Source: a virus. Taken from it: 51,249 nucleotides of DNA. The notes under the pieces were generated by a model. The model ran no database searches and was not told the DNA's origin. It worked only from the letters and a program-made list of their open reading frames with translations. Of this stretch, positions 1-51,249 are shown piece by piece; the stretch's first letter is position 1, and each line of letters opens with the position of its first letter. The stretch is from IMG/VR virus record IMGVR_UViG_3300033145_001039, positions 1 through 51,249 of that record. The stretch is one strand, 5' to 3'. A program made the position numbers and the translations under genes.

Positions 1-114
1 TCCCCGAGAATCCACCGCCCGTATCTACGTCATAGTAGATGTTGTAGTGCGAGAACCGCACCCATGAAGATTTGGGAAGCCGAAACTTGATAAAGATGCG
101 CTCCCTGCCAACTA
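1..114. repeat. Direct terminal repeat, left copy
   Basis: These 114 bases are identical to 51136-51249. The tail-fibre reading frame continues unbroken across the join, so the molecule is circular or circularly permuted, or the overlap was left by the assembler. The unique genome is then 51,135 bp. A true physical terminal repeat is possible but is not needed to explain it. Confidence 0.95.
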
Positions 115-9843: not shown

Positions 9844-10451
9844 TTTCCCACCAACTGTTCTATCATGTCATCTAGAGTTGTAGCGACATCTTGGGCTTCC
9901 TTCTTATCCGGCACATCTACAAGACCCAAAACCCAATGAAACATGGTCTCGATCTTTTGCGCCGGTTCATTCGATAGAAGCCGATCCACGAACTCCTTGT
10001 TCACGACTATTGTCTCGTCCCCTTCCTCTATCTCCATGCCGTATTCCTGTTGGAACGCCAGCGTCAGTGCTTCCAACATGAGATCCCGAGGGGAACGATC
10101 GGGATTGTGGTTAAATGGCTCAAAAATGGCATCTACATACGGTCCCCACTTGGCTATAATGCCTGCCTTGAATCGAGCCATCCATAGCCGTGCCTCATCC
10201 TTGCTCTTGAATTGATCGGGGAGCCCTTCTTCCCTCAACGCACCCAAGACACTATCCACACAGTCCGCAATTGCCATAGCAGCCTTGTTGCGGATTGCGC
10301 CCAAGTTGATTCCGGCCAACTTTTCAAATTGGGCCTGGCGAAGCAAGGACAGACGGGGCAGGATGATTTTCTGCCCCGCCACCTCAAACTCCCGCTTGTG
10401 AGCCTCTTTGGCCCCAGCCTTATAAGCTTTGAGCAAGCTAGACTTGCCCAT
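9756..10451 (-). CDS. Tail assembly chaperone, zero-frame product (G-type)
   Basis: 231 residues, ATG 10451 behind AAGGAGGCGTA. The start overlaps the previous gene's stop by one base (TAATG). It is mostly helical and acidic in the middle (EEGDETIVVNKEFVDRLLSNEP), as expected for a chaperone coating the tape measure. The last ~27 residues are low-complexity (KKSTTSTSSRSSRQR) because the real coding pressure moves to the -1 frame after the CCCAAAA site at codons 204-205. It is named from position and the frameshift rather than from direct similarity. Confidence 0.8.
   Translation of the reverse strand: MGKSSLLKAYKAGAKEAHKREFEVAGQKIILPRLSLLRQAQFEKLAGINLGAIRNKAAMAIADCVDSVLGALREEGLPDQFKSKDEARLWMARFKAGIIAKWGPYVDAIFEPFNHNPDRSPRDLMLEALTLAFQQEYGMEIEEGDETIVVNKEFVDRLLSNEPAQKIETMFHWVLGLVDVPDKKEAQDVATTLDDMIEQLVGNPKVSERKPPKKSTTSTSSRSSRQRTDSA
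9837..9843 (-). promoter_or_regulatory. Slippery heptamer CCCAAAA, -1 programmed ribosomal frameshift
   Basis: On the minus strand the zero frame reads C CCA AAA G, a perfect X XXY YYZ heptamer. Slipping back one base turns CCA-AAA into CCC-AAA and enters the open extension frame. The position just upstream of the tape measure is where tail-chaperone frameshifts occur across siphoviruses. Confidence 0.85.
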
Positions 10452-19591: not shown

Positions 19592-19620
19592 ATTCTACCA
19601 CAATCTGCGTTACTAGTCAA
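19592..19620 (-). promoter_or_regulatory. Late promoter, TTGACT-17-TAGAAT
   Basis: Minus strand: -35 TTGACT at 19615-19620, 17-bp spacer, -10 TAGAAT at 19592-19597. It overlaps the end of the parB-like gene and faces the virion operon. Predicted start about 19585, just before leader A. Confidence 0.75.
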
Positions 19621-20285
19621 GCCAATTGTCTGTCTTCAAGACGAGAAATTATCTCGGCCATATAAAGAAGTGCCCTTCCATGTCCCTTGCGATCATTTCC
19701 AAAACCGCATAGATCAGCTATTCTTTCAATCTGGCTCATAATGGTTTCTTTCTCGACTTCATCTCTTACGACAAAACTTAAGGTAATGGCACTTGAAGCC
19801 GACCCTTCCTCGGCTTCCGCTGCGACCCGATCCCAGTCAAAGTCAATTAGGTCCCGGACATCATTAAGCTCCTCCATATTCCATGGCACGGTTTCCTCAA
19901 AGTCCTCTAGGCTTATCCCGCCGTCCAAGACAATCTGTAGGGCTTCGGCCTGTTTGATCGGATCTACCTCGAAGTACTCGACAACTTCGTGCGCAATGCG
20001 TATTGCCTCTTCTTGGGAGATTGGTCCATGATCGTAAGCCAGTACCTGTTTGATTCCCAGCTCTTTGAAAGCAATCAGACGATGGTTTCCATCGATCATT
20101 TCATAGCGTCCATCCTCTAATTGACGAACATTACAGTTTTTGATCTGCCCATTGCGGCGGATGTTCTCTGCCAGTTTTCTAGCCTTATCTTCGTCATCTT
20201 GCTTAAAGTTCCAGGGAGCTGGTACTATCTTGTCAATCGAGATCATCTTCAGTTGCGCCGGGAGCTTGGCTTTAGTACTAGACAT
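19617..20285 (-). CDS. ParB/sulfiredoxin-fold protein, DpdB-like candidate
   Basis: 222 residues. Residues ~14-110 are a ParB N-terminal-type domain: ISIDKIVPAPWNF, LAENIRRNGQIKNCNVRQL and the signature YEMIDGNHRLIAFKELG. The rest is acidic and helical. It overlaps the upstream transglycosylase-like gene by 8 bases and is the last gene of the preQ0 operon. In bacterial dpd clusters a ParB/DndB-type ATPase (DpdB) works with DpdA to insert preQ0 into DNA, so a partner role is the attractive inference. A generic phage ParB-like protein is the alternative. Confidence 0.7.
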   Translation of the reverse strand: MSSTKAKLPAQLKMISIDKIVPAPWNFKQDDEDKARKLAENIRRNGQIKNCNVRQLEDGRYEMIDGNHRLIAFKELGIKQVLAYDHGPISQEEAIRIAHEVVEYFEVDPIKQAEALQIVLDGGISLEDFEETVPWNMEELNDVRDLIDFDWDRVAAEAEEGSASSAITLSFVVRDEVEKETIMSQIERIADLCGFGNDRKGHGRALLYMAEIISRLEDRQLA

Positions 20286-21072
20286 TCCAGTTCACCCCCC
20301 TCTTTTCCCAAAGTCTATTCAAGAACTCTTCCATCTTTAGTAGCTCGCGTACATTGTGGGCATTTCGTTCTAAGTACGCACTACGTTTGATAATACCAGG
20401 CCCGATTCTATTGATTGCTCTTTTGGGGTTTTTCCGTGGAAGAGCAGTCGATATCGTGCCATTCCGAAAACCAAGAACCATGCCAAATCTACCCCCAGCA
20501 TTCCACGTTGTAGCATCGCAGGAGTACGCGGGTACCCACTTAAGAACAGAACAAGAGGAGACTCCAAACAAGTGAATCCTGGTCCCGCGCTCAAAAGCAT
20601 ACTGAATAGGACGTGCGATCCGAGCCAAAAGCCCCTTCCAAGAGTTCTTTTGCTTGCCCACTATTCCACCAATAGCTACATAGTTAAAGTCTCTACAGTA
20701 GTCTTCAAATATTGACCAAGCCCAGCCAGGATGCCATACAGGGACGGGCTTCAGGCCAGCTTTTAGAAGACGATATAGATTAGCATTGGATTCATCAGGA
20801 GAATCAGTATCCAGATTTGCATATGCACTTAGATAAGGCCCTAGCTGGTGCAAGCAGTCTATATAGACCCCAATGTCTATCTGGGTCCCTGACACGCGGG
20901 CACTGTATCCTCCCGAATCCATGAAGATGTCCAATTGAGACGCATCGCGCATAATATTGGCTACTGTCTTGGAATCAGAATAGCAAAAGGAAAAAAGAAG
21001 CCGCGTAACGCCGCATGAACGCAGCAGCTTATAGAATTTACTCGACTCGCCACCCGCAAAGTACAATTTCAT
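20278..21072 (-). CDS. dpdA: DpdA-like DNA 7-deazaguanine transglycosylase
   Basis: 264 residues. It is a divergent relative of tRNA-guanine transglycosylase: IFMDSGGYSARVSG around residues 49-62 (D52 matches the TGT DSGG aspartate), ANLDTD at 86-91, YVAIGGIVG at 131-139, IHLFGVSS at 166-173, and CDATTW at 185-190, where D186 is the candidate nucleophile. TGT paralogues of this length next to preQ0 genes in phages exchange guanine in DNA for preQ0-type bases. It overlaps queC (ATGA) and the parB-like gene. No tRNA-specific C-terminal zinc site is present. Confidence 0.85.
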   Translation of the reverse strand: MKLYFAGGESSKFYKLLRSCGVTRLLFSFCYSDSKTVANIMRDASQLDIFMDSGGYSARVSGTQIDIGVYIDCLHQLGPYLSAYANLDTDSPDESNANLYRLLKAGLKPVPVWHPGWAWSIFEDYCRDFNYVAIGGIVGKQKNSWKGLLARIARPIQYAFERGTRIHLFGVSSCSVLKWVPAYSCDATTWNAGGRFGMVLGFRNGTISTALPRKNPKRAINRIGPGIIKRSAYLERNAHNVRELLKMEEFLNRLWEKRGVNWNV

Positions 21073-21992
21073 TGATCACCGTTTCGCGCCACAAATGCAG
21101 CATTGATTCCGCTCTTGTTAAGAGCATTTATAATGTCCTTGGCTGCCACTATAGATATTTCTTCATGGGCTAGCGCATAGCCCCTACAATGGACACGTAC
21201 AGCCTCTCTTATCTTTTTATTAATCAGAGGGTCATTAAGATTCGGCGGGGGAGATAGCCACTTTTCATCCTGGGCAATGCCATTGTTTACAAAGGCAACC
21301 CACCGCCTAAAGCATGCCTGACATGCTCCACAATGGATGCTTTTCCCTTCCTGACACGATAGCGTGTCCAATATGTTTGCTTCGTTGACATTTTTCAGCC
21401 ACCATCTGACTATATCGGTCTTGCTCCATCCCGAAAAAGGAAAGTATACGCGCACAGGATAGGGCCTAGTCCCCAGCACAGCATTCAAAGCTCCCCAGAA
21501 CTGCCAGCTCTTATCACCACCACGGGGCTTGATCTCTCCCTCGGTAGCGGATAGCCAGATCTCCCCACCCTTATCAAGGAGCTCGGAAGCAGCCATTATG
21601 AAAAGCAAGTTACGGCCAGGAATCATATAGCCGTAACGCTCGCGATTATGAGTGAAATCTGAAAAATCCAAGATCAATGGGTCGATCCCCAGCTTTTCAA
21701 GCGCCCTCAATTCAAGATCCTCATAACCGGTCCGAATCTTGCAATATACTGGTATTGCCTCACCCCGGGCTCGTCTCTTCGCCATGAAGTAGGCTGCCGA
21801 GCTATCTAGCCCCCCAGACACAAGAACCACAATATCATGCGCCGGCTGGCCAACTAAAAACTCTACTTCCTGCACCATGTGGGGATGATAGAAAGCTTCT
21901 TGAAGAAGGGTGCCCCAGATTCCAGGAGGCAAAGTTACGGGCTTCCCTTCGGCCACATCCCTCATTAGCTTTAAGATATCTTTAGCGGTCAT
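21069..21992 (-). CDS. queC: 7-cyano-7-deazaguanine (preQ0) synthase QueC
   Basis: 307 residues. PP-loop motif VSGGLDSSAAYFMAKRR at residues 58-74, substrate region MIPGRNLLFIMAASEL, and a zinc site at C212, C220, C223 and C226 (SCQEGKSIHCGACQACFRRW). It converts CDG to preQ0 with ATP and ammonia. It is longer than typical QueC (~230) because of a ~50-residue N-terminal and ~70-residue C-terminal extension. Neither extension looks like the glutamine amidotransferase domain of Gat-QueC, which argues against conversion to the archaeosine-type base. Overlaps folE and dpdA. Confidence 0.93.
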   Translation of the reverse strand: MTAKDILKLMRDVAEGKPVTLPPGIWGTLLQEAFYHPHMVQEVEFLVGQPAHDIVVLVSGGLDSSAAYFMAKRRARGEAIPVYCKIRTGYEDLELRALEKLGIDPLILDFSDFTHNRERYGYMIPGRNLLFIMAASELLDKGGEIWLSATEGEIKPRGGDKSWQFWGALNAVLGTRPYPVRVYFPFSGWSKTDIVRWWLKNVNEANILDTLSCQEGKSIHCGACQACFRRWVAFVNNGIAQDEKWLSPPPNLNDPLINKKIREAVRVHCRGYALAHEEISIVAAKDIINALNKSGINAAFVARNGDQ

Positions 21993-22573
21993 TTCATCCC
22001 CATCAGTCGCAAGAACTCCTCACGAGTTGCGGGGTTGTCTTTGAACGCCCCCCTTAGACAAGATGTCACCATCTCGCCTTGAGACTTGGCACCCCGAAAT
22101 CTCATACAGGAATGAACCGCCCTTATAACGACCGCTACGCCATGAGGGGCAAGATTAGGATTGTCAATAGCATCGGCGATTTCTTGGGTAAGCCTTTCCT
22201 GTAGCTGTAGCCTAGCAGCTAACGCATGAACTACCCGTGGGATCTTTGACAATCCCACTACCTTTCCTTCGCTAGGGATATAGGCCACTGACGCAGTTCC
22301 GAAGAAAGGCATCAGATGGTGTTCACATAGAGAGACGAAAGGAATATCCTTGACTACTACCATCTCATCGTATTCGGTACGAAAGATCTTTCCCAGAATC
22401 TCTTTTGGATCTGCGCCGTAGCCCCAGGTCATTTCTTTGAGAGCCTTAACTACCCGGTAAGGAGTCTCGATGAGCCCTTCCCGGGAGACATCCTCGCCCA
22501 GATACTGCAGAAGCCCACTTACGAATTCCTGGGCCTGCTTTGTCGTTATTCCGACCGCCCCTTGATTAGACAC
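21989..22573 (-). CDS. folE: GTP cyclohydrolase I
   Basis: 194 residues from GTG 22573. It carries the family signature: REGLIETPYRVVKALKEMTWGY, FVSLCEHHLMPFFGTASVAYIP with zinc Cys/His, VVGLSKIPRVVHALAARLQLQERLTQEIADAI and CMRFRGAKSQGEMVTSCLRG. It makes dihydroneopterin triphosphate, the first intermediate of preQ0 synthesis. Its N-terminal codons contain the GGGGCGGTCGG motif; the in-frame stretch after it (GGA ATA ACG) also reaches the conserved region, so the exact start is open. It overlaps queE and queC. Confidence 0.95.
   Translation of the reverse strand: MSNQGAVGITTKQAQEFVSGLLQYLGEDVSREGLIETPYRVVKALKEMTWGYGADPKEILGKIFRTEYDEMVVVKDIPFVSLCEHHLMPFFGTASVAYIPSEGKVVGLSKIPRVVHALAARLQLQERLTQEIADAIDNPNLAPHGVAVVIRAVHSCMRFRGAKSQGEMVTSCLRGAFKDNPATREEFLRLMGMK
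22551..22561 (-). promoter_or_regulatory. Start-associated motif 4
   Basis: GGGGCGGTCGG 12 bases inside folE from its GTG. Confidence 0.8.
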
Positions 22574-23207
22574 CTCGTGCCTCCTCTCCCCAGATCACTT
22601 TGTGCCACTGAATTTGTATGGCGTAGTTATAGGCAATACACCATTGGGCTAACTCTTTAAAAGGCATCGCTCCCCATACGGGACTAAAGATCGGAAGCGC
22701 CTCAGTGGGGTAGCGCTGTAGAAGTTCGTGAGCATGATCGCATTCCTTTATGGACGAAACCACGAATTTCACATCATCTATTGGCCTCAACTTGACCAGA
22801 TTTTCTAGGCACATCTCATCTTGCATTCCCGAGGCCTCGGTCTTGATGTCCATGACATAGCGTGCACGAAGGGGAACGAGGGCTATACTGCCATTGGTTT
22901 CTATCTCAATGGCTTCTTTCTGAAAGCCCATTCGGTTGAGTTCCATAACCAAAGCCCATAATCCATCCAGTTGGATCATGGGCTCCCCCCCAGTAATACA
23001 GACGCGACTGGCACCGCTTTCGGAAACTCTTTCAACAATCTCCTTTATGGTTAGCTCTTTGCCTCCCCCAAGATCCTGGGCATACTTTGTGTCGCAGTAC
23101 AAGCAGCGAAGATTGCATCCCTGGAAACGCACAAAGAAAGTGGGTCGGCCCGCATAGCGACCCTCTCCTTGAATAGAATAGAACAGTTCATTTATCTTAA
23201 CCTTCAT
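22566..23207 (-). CDS. queE: 7-carboxy-7-deazaguanine synthase QueE
   Basis: 213 residues. Radical-SAM motif FFVRFQGCNLRCLYCDTKYA (CX3CX2C) near residues 25-44, glycine motif VCITGGEP at ~69-76, and IEIETNGS. FYSIQGEGRYAGRP is the usual N-terminal QueE signature. It converts 6-carboxytetrahydropterin to CDG. It overlaps queD by 11 bases and folE by 8. Confidence 0.95.
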   Translation of the reverse strand: MKVKINELFYSIQGEGRYAGRPTFFVRFQGCNLRCLYCDTKYAQDLGGGKELTIKEIVERVSESGASRVCITGGEPMIQLDGLWALVMELNRMGFQKEAIEIETNGSIALVPLRARYVMDIKTEASGMQDEMCLENLVKLRPIDDVKFVVSSIKECDHAHELLQRYPTEALPIFSPVWGAMPFKELAQWCIAYNYAIQIQWHKVIWGEEARGV

Positions 23208-23565
23208 ATATGACTCCTTGATTGGGCGTCTCCCATAGCTCTATGCGCTCCAAGGCCACAGAATCGGGCAACTTCCATTCAATCTCTCTCCACAGATGGA
23301 AAGCTATTTCTTCGGCCGTGGGATTAGCTATTAAATCATTCAATAGCCTATGGTCAGGGAGGGTACTATTAACAATTGCCTTTATCTCATTGAAGTCCAA
23401 TAGCATGCCGGTTTTCTCGTCGATGTCTCCAGACAGGTAGACTACAAGCTCCCACCTATGCCCATGTAGATTTCCACAGGGACCGTAATAGCCGGGAAGG
23501 TAATGTGCAGCATCAAAACTTGTTCTGTAAACCAGCCCCACTCTTCGACCGCCCCGCATAGCCAT
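23197..23565 (-). CDS. queD: 6-carboxytetrahydropterin synthase QueD
   Basis: 122 residues. ATG 23565 has the RBS GAGAGGAGG 5 bases upstream, so the GTG/ATG further up is unlikely. It has the zinc-binding and catalytic pattern YRTSFDAAHYL...PCGNLHGHRWELVVYL with Cys and HGH, then GMLLDFNEIKAIV and PTAEEIAFHLW. It is the first gene of the preQ0 operon, behind leader B. The GGGGCGGTC motif lies inside codons 3-7. Confidence 0.95.
   Translation of the reverse strand: MAMRGGRRVGLVYRTSFDAAHYLPGYYGPCGNLHGHRWELVVYLSGDIDEKTGMLLDFNEIKAIVNSTLPDHRLLNDLIANPTAEEIAFHLWREIEWKLPDSVALERIELWETPNQGVIYEG
23546..23555 (-). promoter_or_regulatory. Start-associated motif 5
   Basis: GGGGCGGTCG in codons 3-7 of queD. 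Confidence 0.8.
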
Positions 23566-23585
23566 GATGCCTCCTCTCACAAACA

Positions 23586-23634
23586 AAGGCCCCCGCCCTT
23601 TCGGACAGGGGCCTGTGTCTCAGGCTATACCTGC
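23586..23634 (-). ncRNA. Operon leader B: AGACA-loop hairpin overlapping a terminator
   Basis: Minus-strand leader of the preQ0 operon: GCCTG-AGACA-CAGGC (23611-23625), then hairpin GGCCCCTGTCC-gaaa-GGGCGGGGGCC (23588-23613) with TTTGTTTG. Three bases are shared by the two stems. It matches leaders A and C in order, stem length and loop. It is not a preQ1 riboswitch, since the same element precedes unrelated operons. Confidence 0.75.
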
Positions 23635-40731: not shown

Positions 40732-40892
40732 TATCTACCCCCTTTCTTGACAGCGGCCCCCGGGGGCAGTACAATCACAATGCCGCCGGGGCGTCGCCGC
40801 CCAGTGTCGCATAAGCTCCCCGCCGGCCTGGAGCCGCCAACTCCAGTCCGTTCCGATTCCCCGCCTCCCTGAATTGGGAGGCCGTTTGCCAT
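40731..40892 (-). CDS. Possible small protein (53 aa)
   Basis: MANGLPIQGGGESERTGVGGS...GGIVIVLPPGAAVKKGGR, starting at the predicted transcript start of the promoter at 40897-40926 and ending one base into the next gene. Gly/Arg/Pro-rich; a perfect 7-bp hairpin (GCCTCCC/GGGAGGC, 40863-40882) occupies codons 4-10. It may be a leader peptide rather than a protein gene. Confidence 0.4.
   Translation of the reverse strand: MANGLPIQGGGESERTGVGGSRPAGSLCDTGRRRPGGIVIVLPPGAAVKKGGR
40747..40775 (+). promoter_or_regulatory. Antisense promoter TTGACA-17-TACAAT with palindromic spacer
   Basis: TTGACA at 40747-40752, TACAAT at 40770-40775, spacer 17 bp that contains the perfect palindrome GCCCCCGGGGGC. 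It points right, against the minus-strand genes, and would transcribe toward the 36-bp repeat array. It may be fortuitous, but spacing and hexamers are good. Confidence 0.5.
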
Positions 40893-40896
40893 CTGC

Positions 40897-40926
40897 ATTA
40901 TAACATGCTGCACGGTACAAATTCAA
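40897..40926 (-). promoter_or_regulatory. Promoter TTGAAT-18-TATAAT for the replication operon
   Basis: Minus strand: -35 at 40921-40926, 18-bp spacer, consensus -10 at 40897-40902. Start near 40890, followed at once by a 7-bp GC hairpin. It converges with the plus-strand promoter at 40747. Confidence 0.7.
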
Positions 40927-40938
40927 CTCCCGCTGGTC

Positions 40939-41181
40939 TCATAATGCCTTCCCTATAAAGCGCTCAAAGCCAAGCTTCTTCCAGCATTCTTCACACAAGA
41001 CGACGTTGTAGAAGACCCAGCTTCCTTCATGTACATCTATCTCCTCCCTGCTATCGGGCCTGTTGAAAACCACCCGTTTGCTTATAGCCTTGGGCGCATT
41101 ACGACTGATTTCGAACTCGTAGTACACTTCCTTCGCCCTGTCGATCTCCTTCTTGCACTCGTCACAGATGTACTTGATCAT
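40939..41181 (-). CDS. Zinc-knuckle protein (80 aa)
   Basis: MIKYICDECKKEIDRAKEVYYEFEIS and VVLCEECWKKLGFERF give a CxxC...CxxC zinc site separated by a beta-rich linker; RBS AGGAGGTGAAAA. It belongs to a family of small phage zinc proteins of unknown role. Confidence 0.7.
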   Translation of the reverse strand: MIKYICDECKKEIDRAKEVYYEFEISRNAPKAISKRVVFNRPDSREEIDVHEGSWVFYNVVLCEECWKKLGFERFIGKAL

Positions 41182-41199
41182 TTTTCACCTCCTAACTCT

Positions 41200-41667
41200 G
41201 GCTCGCTCGGTTCCCCTGGTTCCCTTGACCACTCTGGCTCGCTTCCTAGGCGTGGGTTTCTATTCGTTCACGGCTCGCTAGCCTCCCTCGGTTTTCTCTG
41301 TATTATTGGCTCGCTAATCCTTTCCGGTTTTCTTTAGGACCTCGGCTCGCTCCCCCACGTCGGGTTTCTGCTTTTGAGTGGCTCGCTTCGCGACAGCGGG
41401 TTTCTGTGGCGGCCTAGCTCGCTTCCTGCTATCGGATTTCTGGGGGCAAACGGCTCGCTTTCGCCCGCTGGTTTTCTCTCTTCCCAGGGCTCGCTGCCAA
41501 GAACTGGTTTTCTCTCTCTCCTTGGCTTGCTCACCTATCGCGGGTTGCTCTGTGCCGATGGCTCGCTGTGCCTTTTCGGTTTCCTTCCTTGCTCTGGCTC
41601 GCTGCGGTCTGATGGGTTTCTCCAGAATTCCGGCTCGCCCTCTTCCAAACGGCTGGCGACCCGGGAA
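41200..41667. repeat. 36-bp tandem array with two invariant 8-mers (13 units)
   Basis: Plus-strand unit: GGCTCGCT-N10-GGGTTTCT-N10 (second block GGTTTTCT or GGATTTCT in some units). GGCTCGCT recurs at 41200, 41236, 41272, 41308, 41344, 41380, 41416 (AGCTCGCT), 41452, 41488, 41524 (GGCTTGCT), 41560, 41596 and 41632 (GGCTCGCC), exactly 36 bp apart. The 10-bp interiors show almost no similarity. Half-units are 18 bp and the two 8-mers share GG-T--CT. Frames on both strands stay mostly open because 36 is a multiple of 3. Confidence 0.95.
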
Positions 41668-41691
41668 GCGGTCAAACTCCCCGGGCCGGAA

Positions 41692-41780
41692 GTGGCACCA
41701 CCCCAGCGGATTCGAACCGCCGACCGCAACGGTGGCGGAGGTTAAACCACCGCGCTGCCGGGTTGGGACCCCGGCTTGGC
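41692..41780 (-). other. tRNA-like 3' element (T-arm and hairpins), not a canonical tRNA
   Basis: Minus strand GGCGG-TTCGAAT-CCGCT is a perfect tRNA T-arm, followed by GGGGTGG-T-GCCA. Upstream are hairpins GCCGGG-GTCCCAA-CCCGGC and CGGTGG-N11-CCACCG, but the arms do not assemble into a standard cloverleaf. It may be a degenerate tRNA, a captured attachment-site half, or an unusual tRNA-like RNA. Confidence 0.4.
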
Positions 41781-41818
41781 CCCCTACCTTGGGTCTAGGA
41801 TGGCAGTTGTAGGCCATG

Positions 41819-42247
41819 TCAGAACGGGACTCCGTTCTTAGCCCGCTCTTGGGCACCCATAAGGGACTTGCCTACTCCAGGAGCCAAGTATTCTTCGACC
41901 TTCGGTCTGGTCTTACCTTCGTAGGTGTCCTTCTTTACCTTGATGTAGATTGTCTTATCGGGGAGTTCTGCACAACACCGATCTGCCAGATCTTGCAAGC
42001 CCTCGATCTCGTCCTCTGTGCTACCCCCGAGGGCTACCCACACCTGAACCCATTTCCAGGCTGCTTTTGCATTGACCGGGAGGTTGTCCCATATCATGGC
42101 TCCTTCCCAGCCCCCATTATTGACGACCTCCATCTGAAGTGAAACCATGGGATCGCCCGCTTTAGTTTTGCCTGTCGGATCTAAATCTTTGACCCGTACT
42201 TCGTAGATCCCAGGGTCAAGCACACTTATCAAGTCACCCACTTTCAT
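41819..42247 (-). CDS. DUF669-like ssDNA-annealing/binding protein
   Basis: 142 residues. VLDPGIYEVRVKDLDPTGKTKAGDPMVSLQMEVVNN and AMIWDNLPVNAKAAWKWVQVWVALGG then VKKDTYEGKTRPKVEEYL follow the DUF669 layout ('G.Y...v......T..G.pyl...fev....' and 'v....Y.G...n.v....'). It neighbours a Sak4-like ATPase and RecB-like nuclease, so a single-strand DNA role in recombination is likely. Confidence 0.7.
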   Translation of the reverse strand: MKVGDLISVLDPGIYEVRVKDLDPTGKTKAGDPMVSLQMEVVNNGGWEGAMIWDNLPVNAKAAWKWVQVWVALGGSTEDEIEGLQDLADRCCAELPDKTIYIKVKKDTYEGKTRPKVEEYLAPGVGKSLMGAQERAKNGVPF

Positions 42248-43002
42248 TCCACACCTCCTGCGATAAGCTCCTCGGTGTGAGGCTTACCCTTTTCGGTTTT
42301 CCTTGTTTGCGCGGATTTGGGCTCAAACAATGCCCGCAGCGCCTTGTAGCTCATTGGACACGATCCGGCCTTGTCCAGGATCGGATTCCGGCTCCCAGCC
42401 TCGATGCCCTCATAAGGCCGGAATACGATCTTGCGCTCACCCTTTTCCGTGGTGCAGAACAGGACGTTATCCACTACGGCGAGGGCGAACCTGGCCAAGC
42501 GCCCCGGCAGGTCTATCGTGTGGCCTACCGTGACTTCGCCGATCACTGCCCACCTGGAATGCGCAATGACAAGTACATTGACAGGCAGTTGAGAGAATGC
42601 CTTGATGAGTTCGATTACCCGATTCCGGGCCGCCCCCCAGTCTGCGCCGTAAGGAGCTTGCCCAAGTTGGGTAATACCCATCTCTTCGCAGACCTCACGC
42701 TCGATCCAGTCATTCACCACGTCTATGGTGTCAAGTGCGATCGTCTGATAGGGCAGTTCCCCCTTGTCAACCATGGCCCTTAGCTGCGCGTATACCTCGC
42801 GCAACTCGCCCAGGTTTTTGATCTCAGCCACGTAAGCGCCCTCTACGTAACGGGTGCCGCCTTCCATATCCAAGATCAGGCACTCAGGCCATTGGGCTGC
42901 GAAGGAGCTTTTGCCGATTTTCGGTGCGCCGAATACGAGCCAAGTGCCCCTCTCGGGAAAGCCAGTATCGGCCTTCTTCTTCTCCTTTGGCAGCACTACC
43001 AT
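42244..43002 (-). CDS. Sak4-like RecA-fold recombination ATPase
   Basis: 252 residues. Walker A LVFGAPKIGKSSFAAQWPECLILDMEGG, Walker B IALDTIDVVNDWIEREVCEE, sensor VNVLVIAHSRW. This is the phage AAA_24 / Sak4 single-strand annealing type. It lies between DUF669-like and RecB-like genes in an overlapping trio. RBS GGAGGTGGTGAC. Confidence 0.8.
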   Translation of the reverse strand: MVVLPKEKKKADTGFPERGTWLVFGAPKIGKSSFAAQWPECLILDMEGGTRYVEGAYVAEIKNLGELREVYAQLRAMVDKGELPYQTIALDTIDVVNDWIEREVCEEMGITQLGQAPYGADWGAARNRVIELIKAFSQLPVNVLVIAHSRWAVIGEVTVGHTIDLPGRLARFALAVVDNVLFCTTEKGERKIVFRPYEGIEAGSRNPILDKAGSCPMSYKALRALFEPKSAQTRKTEKGKPHTEELIAGGVE

Positions 43003-43922
43003 GTCACCACCTCCTGCAATTCGCTGTGCTTTCGGGTCTGTCTAAATCCCATCTTCCGGGCTAACTTTGAATCATTGATGCAAAGCTCCCGGTATACACA
43101 CCCGTGATAGCGGCATGCGTCGGGGTTTCTCCATGTCGCTCCCTTTCCTATGGCTCTCGCAATTTCAATCAGTTCTTTGCCGATCTGATCGAGGTCATCA
43201 CCAGACTTTGCTATCGCCTCTTTTTGGTAGTACCACTCGGGCCGAGGCTGGGTGCCATTGAAGGGAGCCGTCAGCCCAACTTCAACGGACAACCGCTTAA
43301 AGTAGGCATCAGAATCCTCATTCTTTCTGATACGGATCTGTGGCTTGCGGATGAGGTAATAGATGATCCCGATGGGTTTGAGCCCCAGTTGCCATTGTGC
43401 CCACATGTAGTAGGCCATCTGGTCATCTATCTGGAGCCTGTCTGTGTCTAGCTCTCGGGAACCGGTCTTCCAATCCCACAGCCAAGCATTGCCATGCGGA
43501 TCTTTTGTAATGAGGTCGATCTTCCCGGCCAGGGAAAACTTAGGAGACTTGCGGCCAGTAGCAGTCTTGAGGGGCACGATAAACTCTTTCTCGACTGCTA
43601 CCACCTCGTGCTCCATAGCCCGGACTGGATCGCGGGCCAGGAGCCCTCCAACGAGCACTTCGGCTATGCCCATGTTGTGCTCAGCCTCATCGTCTCCCCA
43701 TGGCGAAGTATTGGAAGTCAGGTGCTCCCGCATGGCTTCGAACGGGTCTTGCCCCCCGTAGTGGGCTCCCAGCCCTACATGAACCAAGGAGCCGAAATAG
43801 GGGGCGGGCTTGGGTTTCAGCGGTTCAAGCCCTTCGTGGTACTTGAACCACCACTTACGCGGGCACGCTTTCCACGTGCCGATTTCCGAACTAGTCAGAA
43901 CTATGCGCTCCGACCGCCCCAT
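42996..43922 (-). CDS. RecB/Cas4-like PD-(D/E)XK nuclease
   Basis: 308 residues from ATG 43922 with RBS AAGGAGGAGAC; a longer upstream frame covers the previous gene and is rejected. SEIGTWKACPRKWWFKYHEGLEPLKPKPAPYFGSLVHVGLGAHY (split) is the Cas4/RecB start. Active-site region FSLAGKIDLI...WLWDWKTGSREL (D...DxK). C-terminal cysteines CRYHGCVYRELC suggest an iron-sulphur cluster. Likely exonuclease of the recombination module. Codons 1-4 carry motif GGGGCGGTCGG. Confidence 0.88.
   Translation of the reverse strand: MGRSERIVLTSSEIGTWKACPRKWWFKYHEGLEPLKPKPAPYFGSLVHVGLGAHYGGQDPFEAMREHLTSNTSPWGDDEAEHNMGIAEVLVGGLLARDPVRAMEHEVVAVEKEFIVPLKTATGRKSPKFSLAGKIDLITKDPHGNAWLWDWKTGSRELDTDRLQIDDQMAYYMWAQWQLGLKPIGIIYYLIRKPQIRIRKNEDSDAYFKRLSVEVGLTAPFNGTQPRPEWYYQKEAIAKSGDDLDQIGKELIEIARAIGKGATWRNPDACRYHGCVYRELCINDSKLARKMGFRQTRKHSELQEVVTW
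43910..43920 (-). promoter_or_regulatory. Start-associated motif 12
   Basis: GGGGCGGTCGG overlapping ATG 43922 and codons 2-4 of the RecB-like nuclease. Confidence 0.85.
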
Positions 43923-45147: not shown

Positions 45148-46290
45148 CTATTCCCCGCAGATAAAGCAAGGGGCTTCTAGGGCCTTGCAGCCCAGGCTCT
45201 GTAGTCCCAGAGCCAATATGTTTAATGCCGCATTATGGTCACGATCCAAACGAAGACCACAATGAGGACATTCATGAATACGAACTGAGAGATCCTTGGG
45301 AACGATAGCTCCGCACTGGGAGCATCTCTGGGTAGTCCCGCGTGGATCAACTTCGATTACACGACGACCAGCCTCTTCCGCTTTGTACATCGTGAACTGC
45401 CGAAGCTGTCGCCACGCAGCATCACCGATGCTCTTGTTCAAGCTGTGCCAGTTCCCATTTTGCATCTTTTGAATCTCCAGTTTTTCAAAAGCCAGCAATT
45501 GAAATTCATTTACCAGACGACGGCTTAGCTTGTGAGCAAAGTCGCGGCGCTTGTTTGTAATGCGCTCATGGATGCGGGCCACTACCTTGCGCCGCTTCTT
45601 GTATTCAGGGGTTCCTTTTTTAGCTTGGCTGAACTTGCGTTGGGCTTTAGCCAATGCCTTCTCTTCCCGGCGGAAGAACCGTGGATTCTCAATCTGCTCG
45701 CCTGTCGAAAGAGTGGCAAAGCTCTCCAAGCCAACATCTATCCCAACCGCGTTAGGAACAGGGGGCAATCTTTTCGGTTTGACTTCTACTGAGAAGCAAG
45801 CGAACCACTTGCCGGTAGCAGTGCGCCGAATAGTCAGGGTCTTGATTTGTCCTTCGATGGGCCGGTGAAGCCTGATTTTAATGTCCCCGATCTTAGAAAG
45901 ACGCAGCTTTCCCTCCTCAGTGAGTTTGAATCCCGACTGGGGATAGGTGAAGCTATCATATCGCCCCTTTCCTTTGAAACGGGGATAACCGGCTTTCCCG
46001 TTCTTGGCTTTAAGCCTGCGAAAGAATCCTTGAAAGGCCAAGTCAACACGAGTACAAACCTCTTGAAGCACCTGAGAATAGACATCATTGAGCTGGGGAT
46101 ATTCCTCTTTAAGTTGTGGTAACATCTTAATAGTATCATAGCGTGCAAGGGATTCCCGCCGCTCAGACCAGGCTTCGCGCCTTCTAGCTAATATTTCATT
46201 ATAGACAAACCGACAGGAGTCCAAAGTCTGCTCCAGTCGAGCACGCTGGCCTTTCGTAGGAAATAACCGATATTTAAATGTTCTCCTCAC
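45148..46290 (-). CDS. tnpB: TnpB, RNA-guided nuclease of IS200/IS605-type elements, without TnpA
   Basis: 380 residues from GTG 46290, or 386 from ATG 46308. RuvC-like triad: D191 (GIDVGLES), E275 (FEKLEI), D357 (DRDHNAALNI), numbering from 46308. Zinc finger C329/C332 and C347/C350. N-terminal VRRTFKYRLFPTKGQ is standard. All catalytic residues are intact. No tnpA or IS ends fit between the flanking genes (12 and ~37 bases). A promoter overlaps the 46308 start, so GTG 46290 is the better start. Confidence 0.92.
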   Translation of the reverse strand: MRRTFKYRLFPTKGQRARLEQTLDSCRFVYNEILARRREAWSERRESLARYDTIKMLPQLKEEYPQLNDVYSQVLQEVCTRVDLAFQGFFRRLKAKNGKAGYPRFKGKGRYDSFTYPQSGFKLTEEGKLRLSKIGDIKIRLHRPIEGQIKTLTIRRTATGKWFACFSVEVKPKRLPPVPNAVGIDVGLESFATLSTGEQIENPRFFRREEKALAKAQRKFSQAKKGTPEYKKRRKVVARIHERITNKRRDFAHKLSRRLVNEFQLLAFEKLEIQKMQNGNWHSLNKSIGDAAWRQLRQFTMYKAEEAGRRVIEVDPRGTTQRCSQCGAIVPKDLSVRIHECPHCGLRLDRDHNAALNILALGLQSLGCKALEAPCFICGE

Positions 46291-46296
46291 AGTTAT

Positions 46297-46325
46297 ATTA
46301 TATGACATTTATGCGGCGGCGTCAA
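46297..46325 (-). promoter_or_regulatory. tnpB promoter TTGACG-17-TATAAT
   Basis: Minus strand: TTGACG at 46320-46325, 17-bp spacer, TATAAT at 46297-46302. Predicted start ~46290, coinciding with GTG 46290: a possibly leaderless transcript. Confidence 0.7.
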
Positions 46326-50009: not shown

Positions 50010-51249
50010 GCCGGAACCTCCAAGATAATCCAGTTTATTCCGTTCGTGTAATCAATAAACTCTGTTCCATCGTCTCGAACCAGTTTAACTCGATGTTGTA
50101 CATATACATCCACATCGGTATGGCTTCCTGCCGTCAAGAACCCAGTTACTATCGACCCCTCCTTGAATTCTCCTCCTACCTGAAACAGAAAATCATCCAG
50201 CGTCCCAATGTTCATATCAGTATCGTGGAAATACGTCTCCCAAGGAGAGACAATGACGATCCACCTTTTCCCTGTCGGGACTGTCACAGATGCCCAAGAT
50301 TTCACAATTGTATAGCCCGTGGTGGGATTGGAAATATATCCTGCATCTACTAGCCGTGCCCCTTGGAACTTACTATAGGAATCGAAGATCGTAGATCCCG
50401 TAGAATCTGTGACTATAATCGCATCGCTGCTAGTTACCTCCAGGCTTCCGCGCACAGTTACATCGTTGAACTCTGCGTTGCCGAGCCCCGTAATACGAAA
50501 ACCAGAATATCCAGAGACATAATTTTCTGACTGGATATACCCGCCCGATCCTATTGTCAGGCTGGCGGTATTGGTGCCGGCGGTGATTTTGCTAAAAGTG
50601 AGGTCTGCGATTTTAGCATCAGTGATGGTAGCGTTAGCTATCTTGGCATTAGTAACTGCCAAATCCTGGATCTGGGCTGTGCCCACCACGTCTAGAGTCG
50701 CCAGAGCGCCGGCATCGGAAAGGTTAGAGATCCCGGATCCGCCCTGAATGGTGACGTTGCCAATAATAGAAAGTGTTGTGCCATCCCATGAGAGTTTAGG
50801 TGAATCAGAGCCGCCTAGCTTGAATGTGGCATTGTCAAGGTCTATTTCCGTCCCGGCACTTGGTCCCCAGTTCAAGCTGCGCAGAGTACCGCCGATCAGG
50901 GTTCGTGCAGTCAGATCATATGTAGCGATAATATGCTGGGCTGCCACCACGTCGGCTAGAAGATTGGATTGGTTGGCTTCGTTCGGTTGATAGCCTGCCC
51001 CGGAATTGTCATGGATTGTCCCCGTGGTCTCTGTGCCGTCCTCGGCCACCACCGTGATCTTGTATCTGTACTTGTAGGATTCGTTAAGGGGAGAATGCAT
51101 AAATCCAACTACCTCAGAGGCTAGGTAGGTCCAGGTCCCCGAGAATCCACCGCCCGTATCTACGTCATAGTAGATGTTGTAGTGCGAGAACCGCACCCAT
51201 GAAGATTTGGGAAGCCGAAACTTGATAAAGATGCGCTCCCTGCCAACTA
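50006..51249 (-). CDS. Tail fibre / tip protein, C-terminal part (continues from position 1)
   Basis: This is the remainder of the 581-residue protein that starts at 616 across the junction. It shows the end of an FN3-like region (YNIYYDVDTGGGFSG), then segments typical of central tail fibres downstream of phage J-type proteins: ATYDLTARTLIGG, a repeated AVTNAKIANATITDAKIADLTF stretch, and a beta-rich end. It probably assembles as a trimer at the tail tip and contacts the host. It overlaps the next minus-strand gene (50009) by 4 bases (ATGA type). A family name cannot be assigned with certainty. Confidence 0.85.
   Translation of the reverse strand, partial: VGRERIFIKFRLPKSSWVRFSHYNIYYDVDTGGGFSGTWTYLASEVVGFMHSPLNESYKYRYKITVVAEDGTETTGTIHDNSGAGYQPNEANQSNLLADVVAAQHIIATYDLTARTLIGGTLRSLNWGPSAGTEIDLDNATFKLGGSDSPKLSWDGTTLSIIGNVTIQGGSGISNLSDAGALATLDVVGTAQIQDLAVTNAKIANATITDAKIADLTFSKITAGTNTASLTIGSGGYIQSENYVSGYSGFRITGLGNAEFNDVTVRGSLEVTSSDAIIVTDSTGSTIFDSYSKFQGARLVDAGYISNPTTGYTIVKSWASVTVPTGKRWIVIVSPWETYFHDTDMNIGTLDDFLFQVGGEFKEGSIVTGFLTAGSHTDVDVYVQHRVKLVRDDGTEFIDYTNGINWIILEVPA
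51136..51249. repeat. Direct terminal repeat, right copy
   Basis: Exact second copy of bases 1-114. It lies inside the coding sequence of the junction-spanning tail-fibre gene. Confidence 0.95.

Follow-up and report, generated by a model that had tools for sequence, protein, structure and literature searches.

A Tas-less TIGR guide array in a phage genome with guides that match the homologous locus of an array-less relative

Introduction

In a viral genome record of 51,249 nucleotides (IMGVR_UViG_3300033145_001039; the whole stretch was analysed and is hereafter called the window) short constant repeats alternate in a 36-bp rhythm with interiors that differ from unit to unit. What is this array, and what are its variable interiors for? 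A first-pass annotation, made from the letters alone, offered an iteron-type array, a partition site, a decoy for a protein or a repeat protein. Here we describe the array, its counterparts in other genomes and the matches of its interiors to a close relative that lacks it.

Results

The repeats form a TIGR array read on the minus strand

The 36-bp repeat array is real, with a strict period over 41200-41639, where the plus strand reads GGCTCGCT-N10-GGKTTTCT-N10 in exact register. It is made of 12 complete units laid edge-to-edge, in which two constant repeats of 8-10 bp alternate and the interiors of 8-9 bp are random. Thirteen units up to 41667 had been counted at first; the thirteenth is present as a truncated repeat (GGCTCGCC at 41632), but 41640-41667 is non-repeat sequence, and the earlier end overshoots the last repeat by ~27 bp. 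Scanning the whole genome for the 26-bp half-unit pattern with up to 2 mismatches gave 12 forward sites, no reverse sites and none with a reversed-pattern control. Tandem Repeats Finder missed the repeat, presumably owing to the random sequence that fills about half of every unit, and Rfam returned no family for the array region.

The logo of 1,107 distinct units from other loci shows two 10-nt repeats, T-GGCTCGCT-Y and T-GGKTTTCT-Y, so that the constant part is ~10 nt, and two 8-nt spacers that are essentially random, carrying at most 0.05 bits at each of the 8 central interior positions. The hypervariable interiors of the first-pass annotation were thus confirmed, and its remark that the two 8-mers are related, giving an 18-bp half-period, was upheld. 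It had also placed the conservation in DNA or RNA rather than in protein, and this agrees with the stops found in all reading frames of these units (14-48% of units per frame), which rule out a protein repeat.

On the minus strand, along which the neighbouring genes also run, the edge repeat is RAGCGAGCCR and the loop repeat RAGAAAMCCR. Both have the ends RAG...CC(A/G), box C being CCA or CCG and not strictly CCA, while box D is AG, as in Salicola phage CGphi29, versus UG in TasR arrays. The first edge repeat is truncated, which is typical of TIGR arrays; in the last unit the loop repeat is degraded and the array passes straight into the next gene.

TIGR-Tas systems have alternating edge and loop repeats with 8-9-nt spacers and are processed to 36-nt tigRNAs that guide Nop-domain Tas proteins (PMC12045711). 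Clustering of the ORFs that neighbour such arrays led us to this identification, as one protein family was found near arrays in ~100 loci and a member of it scores to Pfam Transposase_20, an IS110-family domain. The alternating pattern, identical in its two 8-mers and its 36-bp spacing, occurs in at least 119 stretches of unrelated IMG/VR contigs, and a genome scan added 16 MAG contigs, assigned by their labels to widely differing bacteria and archaea, in which repeats and period are the same. Of 136 array loci, 100 have a Tas (Nop-domain) gene in the DNA that was fetched. The published TIGR-TasH locus of Salicola phage CGphi29, the SpTIGR-TasH example of Faure et al. 2025 (PMC12045711), carries the same edge repeat and spacing; it shares with the window the edge AGCGAGCC, an A-rich loop, the CC(A) box at the end of both, the 36-nt unit, spacers of 8-9 nt, a tailed-phage genome and a first edge repeat truncated at its 5' end. 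With two alternating 8-12-nt repeats, variable spacers of ~9 nt, a 36-nt unit and shared box C/D motifs, the feature belongs, judged by its sequence, to the TIGR (Tandem Interspaced Guide RNA) arrays with spacers of 8-9 nt, and its strand is the minus strand (Table 1).

The roles first proposed had one point in their favour: iteron and centromere arrays also have short constant motifs in phase. They are unsupported by what we found: the same repeats match published TIGR arrays and lie beside Tas genes in most other carriers, every frame holds stops, and the interiors behave like paired guide spacers whose pairs match targets (see below), all of which leaves an iteron, partition site, protein decoy or repeat protein next to no probability.

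Among the other carriers, ParB-like genes adjoin tas genes and arrays (L021:427-1131, L017:3420-4106, L042:9679-10356 and others), which fits the TasParB association described in PMC12045711. A phage group (L013, L023, L074, L078, L081 and L082) has several very short TIGR arrays scattered between replication genes.

Table 1. Features of the window and of the guide units that match the relative G001
Feature	Position in window	Strand	Remarks
Direct terminal repeat	1-114	+	identical to 51136-51249 (114 bp)
80-aa cysteine-containing ORF	40939-41181	-	starts directly after the array; absent from G001
TIGR array	41199-41640	-	from pattern scan, minus-strand reading and repeat identity to >100 other arrays
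tigRNA unit u41236	41200-41243	-	A GAGTGGTC(A), B GGGGAACC(G); target G001:10674-10692(+), 8+8 exact, 3-nt gap
tigRNA unit u41308	41272-41315	-	A ATAATACA(G), B AGGGAGGC(T); target G001:10592(+), 1 mismatch in 8+8
tigRNA unit u41524	41488-41531	-	A AGGAGAGA(G), B GTTCTTGG(C); target G001:9806-9822(+), 8+8 exact, 1-nt gap
tigRNA unit u41560	41524-41567	-	A TCGGCACA(G), B CGATAGGT(G); target G001:9672(-), 1 mismatch
tRNA-like element	41692-41808	-	immediately upstream of the array; hand-folded
SSB-like DUF669 gene	41819-42247	-	just upstream of the array; G001 homologue holds two of the four targets

No Tas gene is detectable in the genome

The feature is a TIGR array and not a complete TIGR-Tas system, because no Tas gene adjoins it. 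No Tas was found in this genome by tblastn, by a Tas profile HMM at maximum sensitivity, by a profile search of the whole record or by hhalign with all minus-strand ORFs. Compared with the systems of PMC12045711, the array thus lies in a genome without a Tas gene, and we noticed no terminator where it enters the next gene. The record appears to be a complete genome, because its ends carry a direct terminal repeat of 114 bp and both window ends are spanned by a syntenic relative. Given that the record is metagenomic and that Tas proteins are diverse, with a mean column identity of 21%, this could be an ordinary TIGR-Tas system whose Tas is missing from the assembly or too divergent to detect. 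We consider this improbable, as the terminal repeat and the relative speak for a whole genome, all searches were negative while control Tas proteins from outside the alignment scored 99.9-100% in hhalign, and three more array-bearing viral genomes with terminal repeats (G005, G026 and G030), apparently complete, likewise have no detectable Tas. The array of G026 has seven well-kept units, those of G005 and G030 are small, and no self-targets were found in these three genomes.

A ParB-like gene at 19617-20285, 21 kb from the array, was considered as a TasParB and rejected, since it sits among queuosine/7-deazaguanine genes and its protein has no match among the TasParB-like proteins at other array loci. 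It is part of a likely 7-deazaguanine DNA-modification cassette (19617-23586, minus strand; TGT/DpdA-like, QueC, GTP cyclohydrolase I, radical SAM, QueD-like and ParB-like genes) that lies within a 4-kb block absent from the relative described below. Also absent from that relative is a 1.2-kb insertion holding a TnpB-like gene (45148-46308, minus strand; OrfB_IS605, Cas12f1-like_TNB).

A close relative lacks the array

One close relative, IMGVR_UViG_3300033156_000254 (50,326 bp, with a 64-bp direct terminal repeat; G001 from here on), was found with the window's SSB-like, Sak4 and terminase proteins as queries, and searches with SSB, Sak4, terminase and the 80-aa protein found none beyond it. 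G001 covers 79% of the window, mostly at ~95% identity, and has neither the array nor a detectable Tas; in place of 40884-41652 of the window, which holds the array and the 80-aa ORF, it has a second tRNA-like stretch and a 128-aa ORF. Binned identity between the two genomes falls to 74-88% over ~41500-43500 and is back at 98% past that stretch, and their SSB-like genes differ at 51 synonymous versus 5 non-synonymous codons. Right after the last edge repeat, the window has a purine-rich stretch, TTAGGAGGTG, that looks like a putative ribosome-binding site of the 80-aa ORF.

The tRNA-like elements have the T-arm GGTTCGAATCC and a 3' CCA; besides the one in the window, they are found at 9852-9963 and ~10004-10170 (plus strand) of L145. 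Those of the window and the relative were called neither by ARAGORN at normal settings nor by Rfam. The homologous element of the relative has another putative anticodon (CCC versus CGU), and its second element replaces the array.

Four guides match the array-less locus

The two spacers of a unit, A and B, are expected to pair with opposite strands of a DNA target, and we therefore took as a target spacer A followed by the reverse complement of spacer B on one strand, A.rc(B), with 0-3 nt between the 8-mers. This geometry is our own derivation from the 8-nt 3' overhangs published in PMC12045711, because only that order gives 3' overhangs of this length. The allowed gap was widened from 0-2 to 0-3 nt after the first matches; without unit u41236, three matches remain.

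Four of the 12 units match G001 with at most 1 mismatch in 8+8 nt, in all cases as sequence matches only, and all four fall within G001:9672-10692 (~1 kb of 50 kb). The matches are colinear with the order of the units and lie around and at the edges of the place that lacks the array, so that the element-free relative carries the targets at the insertion locus. The ninth spacer base also matches in 7 of 8 cases, and the target of u41236 can alternatively be read as 9+9 exact with a 1-nt gap. The other 8 units have no target in G001, the single relative available, and no other carriers of guide u41524 were found.

Spacers of just 8-9 nt may match by chance, and arrays in general give match counts near background on mixed unrelated loci. 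In G001, 0.055 matches are expected versus 4 observed (Poisson P = 3.7e-7 before clustering is counted), and these fall in 1 kb of 50 kb. For comparison, 1,463 units from other arrays gave 11 matches in G001. Among 132 mispairs of the spacers there was one match, none exact, and 40 letter shuffles gave four in total, again none exact. The cluster arises only in the published geometry: the true pairs in three other geometries gave no exact and two one-mismatch matches, and an alternative pairing one one-mismatch match. When all arrays were compared with all collected loci, the window/G001 cluster ranked top and alone, scoring 8.0 against at most 4.0 in controls. Nor can plain homology explain the matches, because spacer B is inverted relative to A at each site. 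Chance or shared homology is thus a very improbable source of the four matches.

For these guides, nothing in the window's own genome matches with fewer than 3 mismatches, and its DNA at the positions of the G001 targets is diverged or absent. This bears on whether the array, instead of attacking rivals, regulates genes of its own phage or aids recombination at its locus. Such a role would suit targets that sit at the array's own locus, and TasA, which has no nuclease, is thought to bend DNA (PMC12045711). It is nevertheless distinctly unlikely, as no target with up to 1 mismatch exists anywhere in the window and the window copies of the target sites differ or are missing.

The matches also bear on whether the array is a decaying relic with no present function, as the lack of Tas, the degraded last loop repeat, the run straight into the next gene and the lack of a known target for most units could suggest. 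The repeats, however, are well kept over 12 units at strict spacing, and four guides match the present-day locus of the relative nearly perfectly, which is unexpected for a long-dead array; we regard a relic as unlikely, though less so than the role in the phage's own regulation or recombination.

Locus targeting in other array families

Two phage families with Tas-bearing arrays, for which 80 and 30 relatives were fetched, showed no enrichment of locus targeting, nor did 174 pairs of array-plus and array-minus loci, and targets in the arrays' own flanks did not exceed controls across all arrays. The claim of locus targeting therefore rests on the window/G001 pair, and its generality beyond this pair is unsupported.

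In the family of L087:4065-5855 (L151-L226), the presence of the array is highly polymorphic among close phage relatives; most relatives have no array in the fetched stretch, and the arrays do not match those relatives. In L096, L020 and L093, the guide AAGCATTC/CTTGCGCC matches the carriers' own DNA ~100-130 bp from the array with a single mismatch, possibly an escaped self-site.

Discussion

We propose, with a probability of roughly 60%, that this virus-borne TIGR array, itself without a Tas, makes use of a borrowed one to attack a competing relative at its array-less allele. The anatomy of the array, the lack of a detectable Tas and the clustering of the matches were observed; from them we infer the attack. 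The array would be transcribed leftward, on the minus strand, between the SSB-like gene and the 80-aa ORF, and, if it behaves like published systems, its transcript would be processed to 36-nt tigRNAs with two spacers each. Because the phage has no detectable Tas, the guides would have to be loaded into one provided in trans, whether from the host, from a prophage resident in it or from a virus that co-infects; at least 4 of the 12 guides appear to be aimed at the homologous locus of the array-less close relative. The likely effect would be interference with such a relative when it co-infects, i.e. superinfection exclusion, with target binding or cleavage and a fitness effect as presumed steps. 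Against the proposal stand the lack of a Tas in cis, the eight units that find no target in G001, the negative locus-targeting tests of other arrays and a box C that departs from strict CCA. One published result also counts against an attack: in E. coli, TasR did not block phage or conjugation, yet it drove plasmid loss (PMC12045711).

If a cut were repaired from the genome that bears the array, the array could spread as well, in the manner of homing. Mobile introns and homing endonucleases act on the allele that lacks the element, at the same locus. Like them, the array has targets in the element-free allele, and the flanks of the carrier are diverged from the relative; unlike them, it is RNA-guided and multi-site, no nuclease is encoded alongside it, and conversion would be a presumption here. 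As regards copying into the relative, a diverged block around the array is all that is seen in the comparison with G001. Sequence alone does not distinguish exclusion from cleavage followed by copying of the array. A wider version, in which Tas-less TIGR arrays are RNA-guided homing or allele-drive elements whose guides, taken from the rival's locus and aimed at the array-less allele of that same locus, direct a borrowed Tas to kill or convert co-infecting relatives, is put forward tentatively, as a possibility that we rate well below the attack itself.

A direct parallel is found in archaeal viruses, whose mini-CRISPR arrays have no cas genes and are directed at close relatives, at sites near the array, with the carriers' own sites mutated (Medvedeva et al. 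2019, PMC6858448). Those arrays likewise are guide arrays without an effector gene whose guides match a close relative near the array; the orthologous sites of the carriers are mutated or deleted, and superinfection exclusion with an effector supplied in trans has been proposed. They differ from the present array in belonging to CRISPR-Cas rather than to the TIGR/Nop type and in having 1-2 spacers rather than 12 units, and for the TIGR array no spacer-acquisition machinery is known.

The array type has been known since 2025. The genuine targets of TIGR arrays, the origin of their spacers and their biological role are stated as unknown in PMC12045711, which could not identify any natural targets, whereas candidate ones were found here. 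Our searches of the literature, made without subscription papers and some preprints, found no published natural TIGR targets. As far as we found in that literature, these matches are the first sign of natural targets for a TIGR-type array, and the combination of a TIGR array lacking a Tas with identifiable natural targets at a relative's homologous locus appears, as far as checked, to be new.

The two phages provide a concrete natural target set, with four guides, one relative, one locus and altered sites in the carrier itself, that points to conflict between related phages. Arrays of this kind occur without an effector, as do the virus-borne mini-CRISPR arrays, and the role of TIGR would thereby become directly testable with defined sequences.
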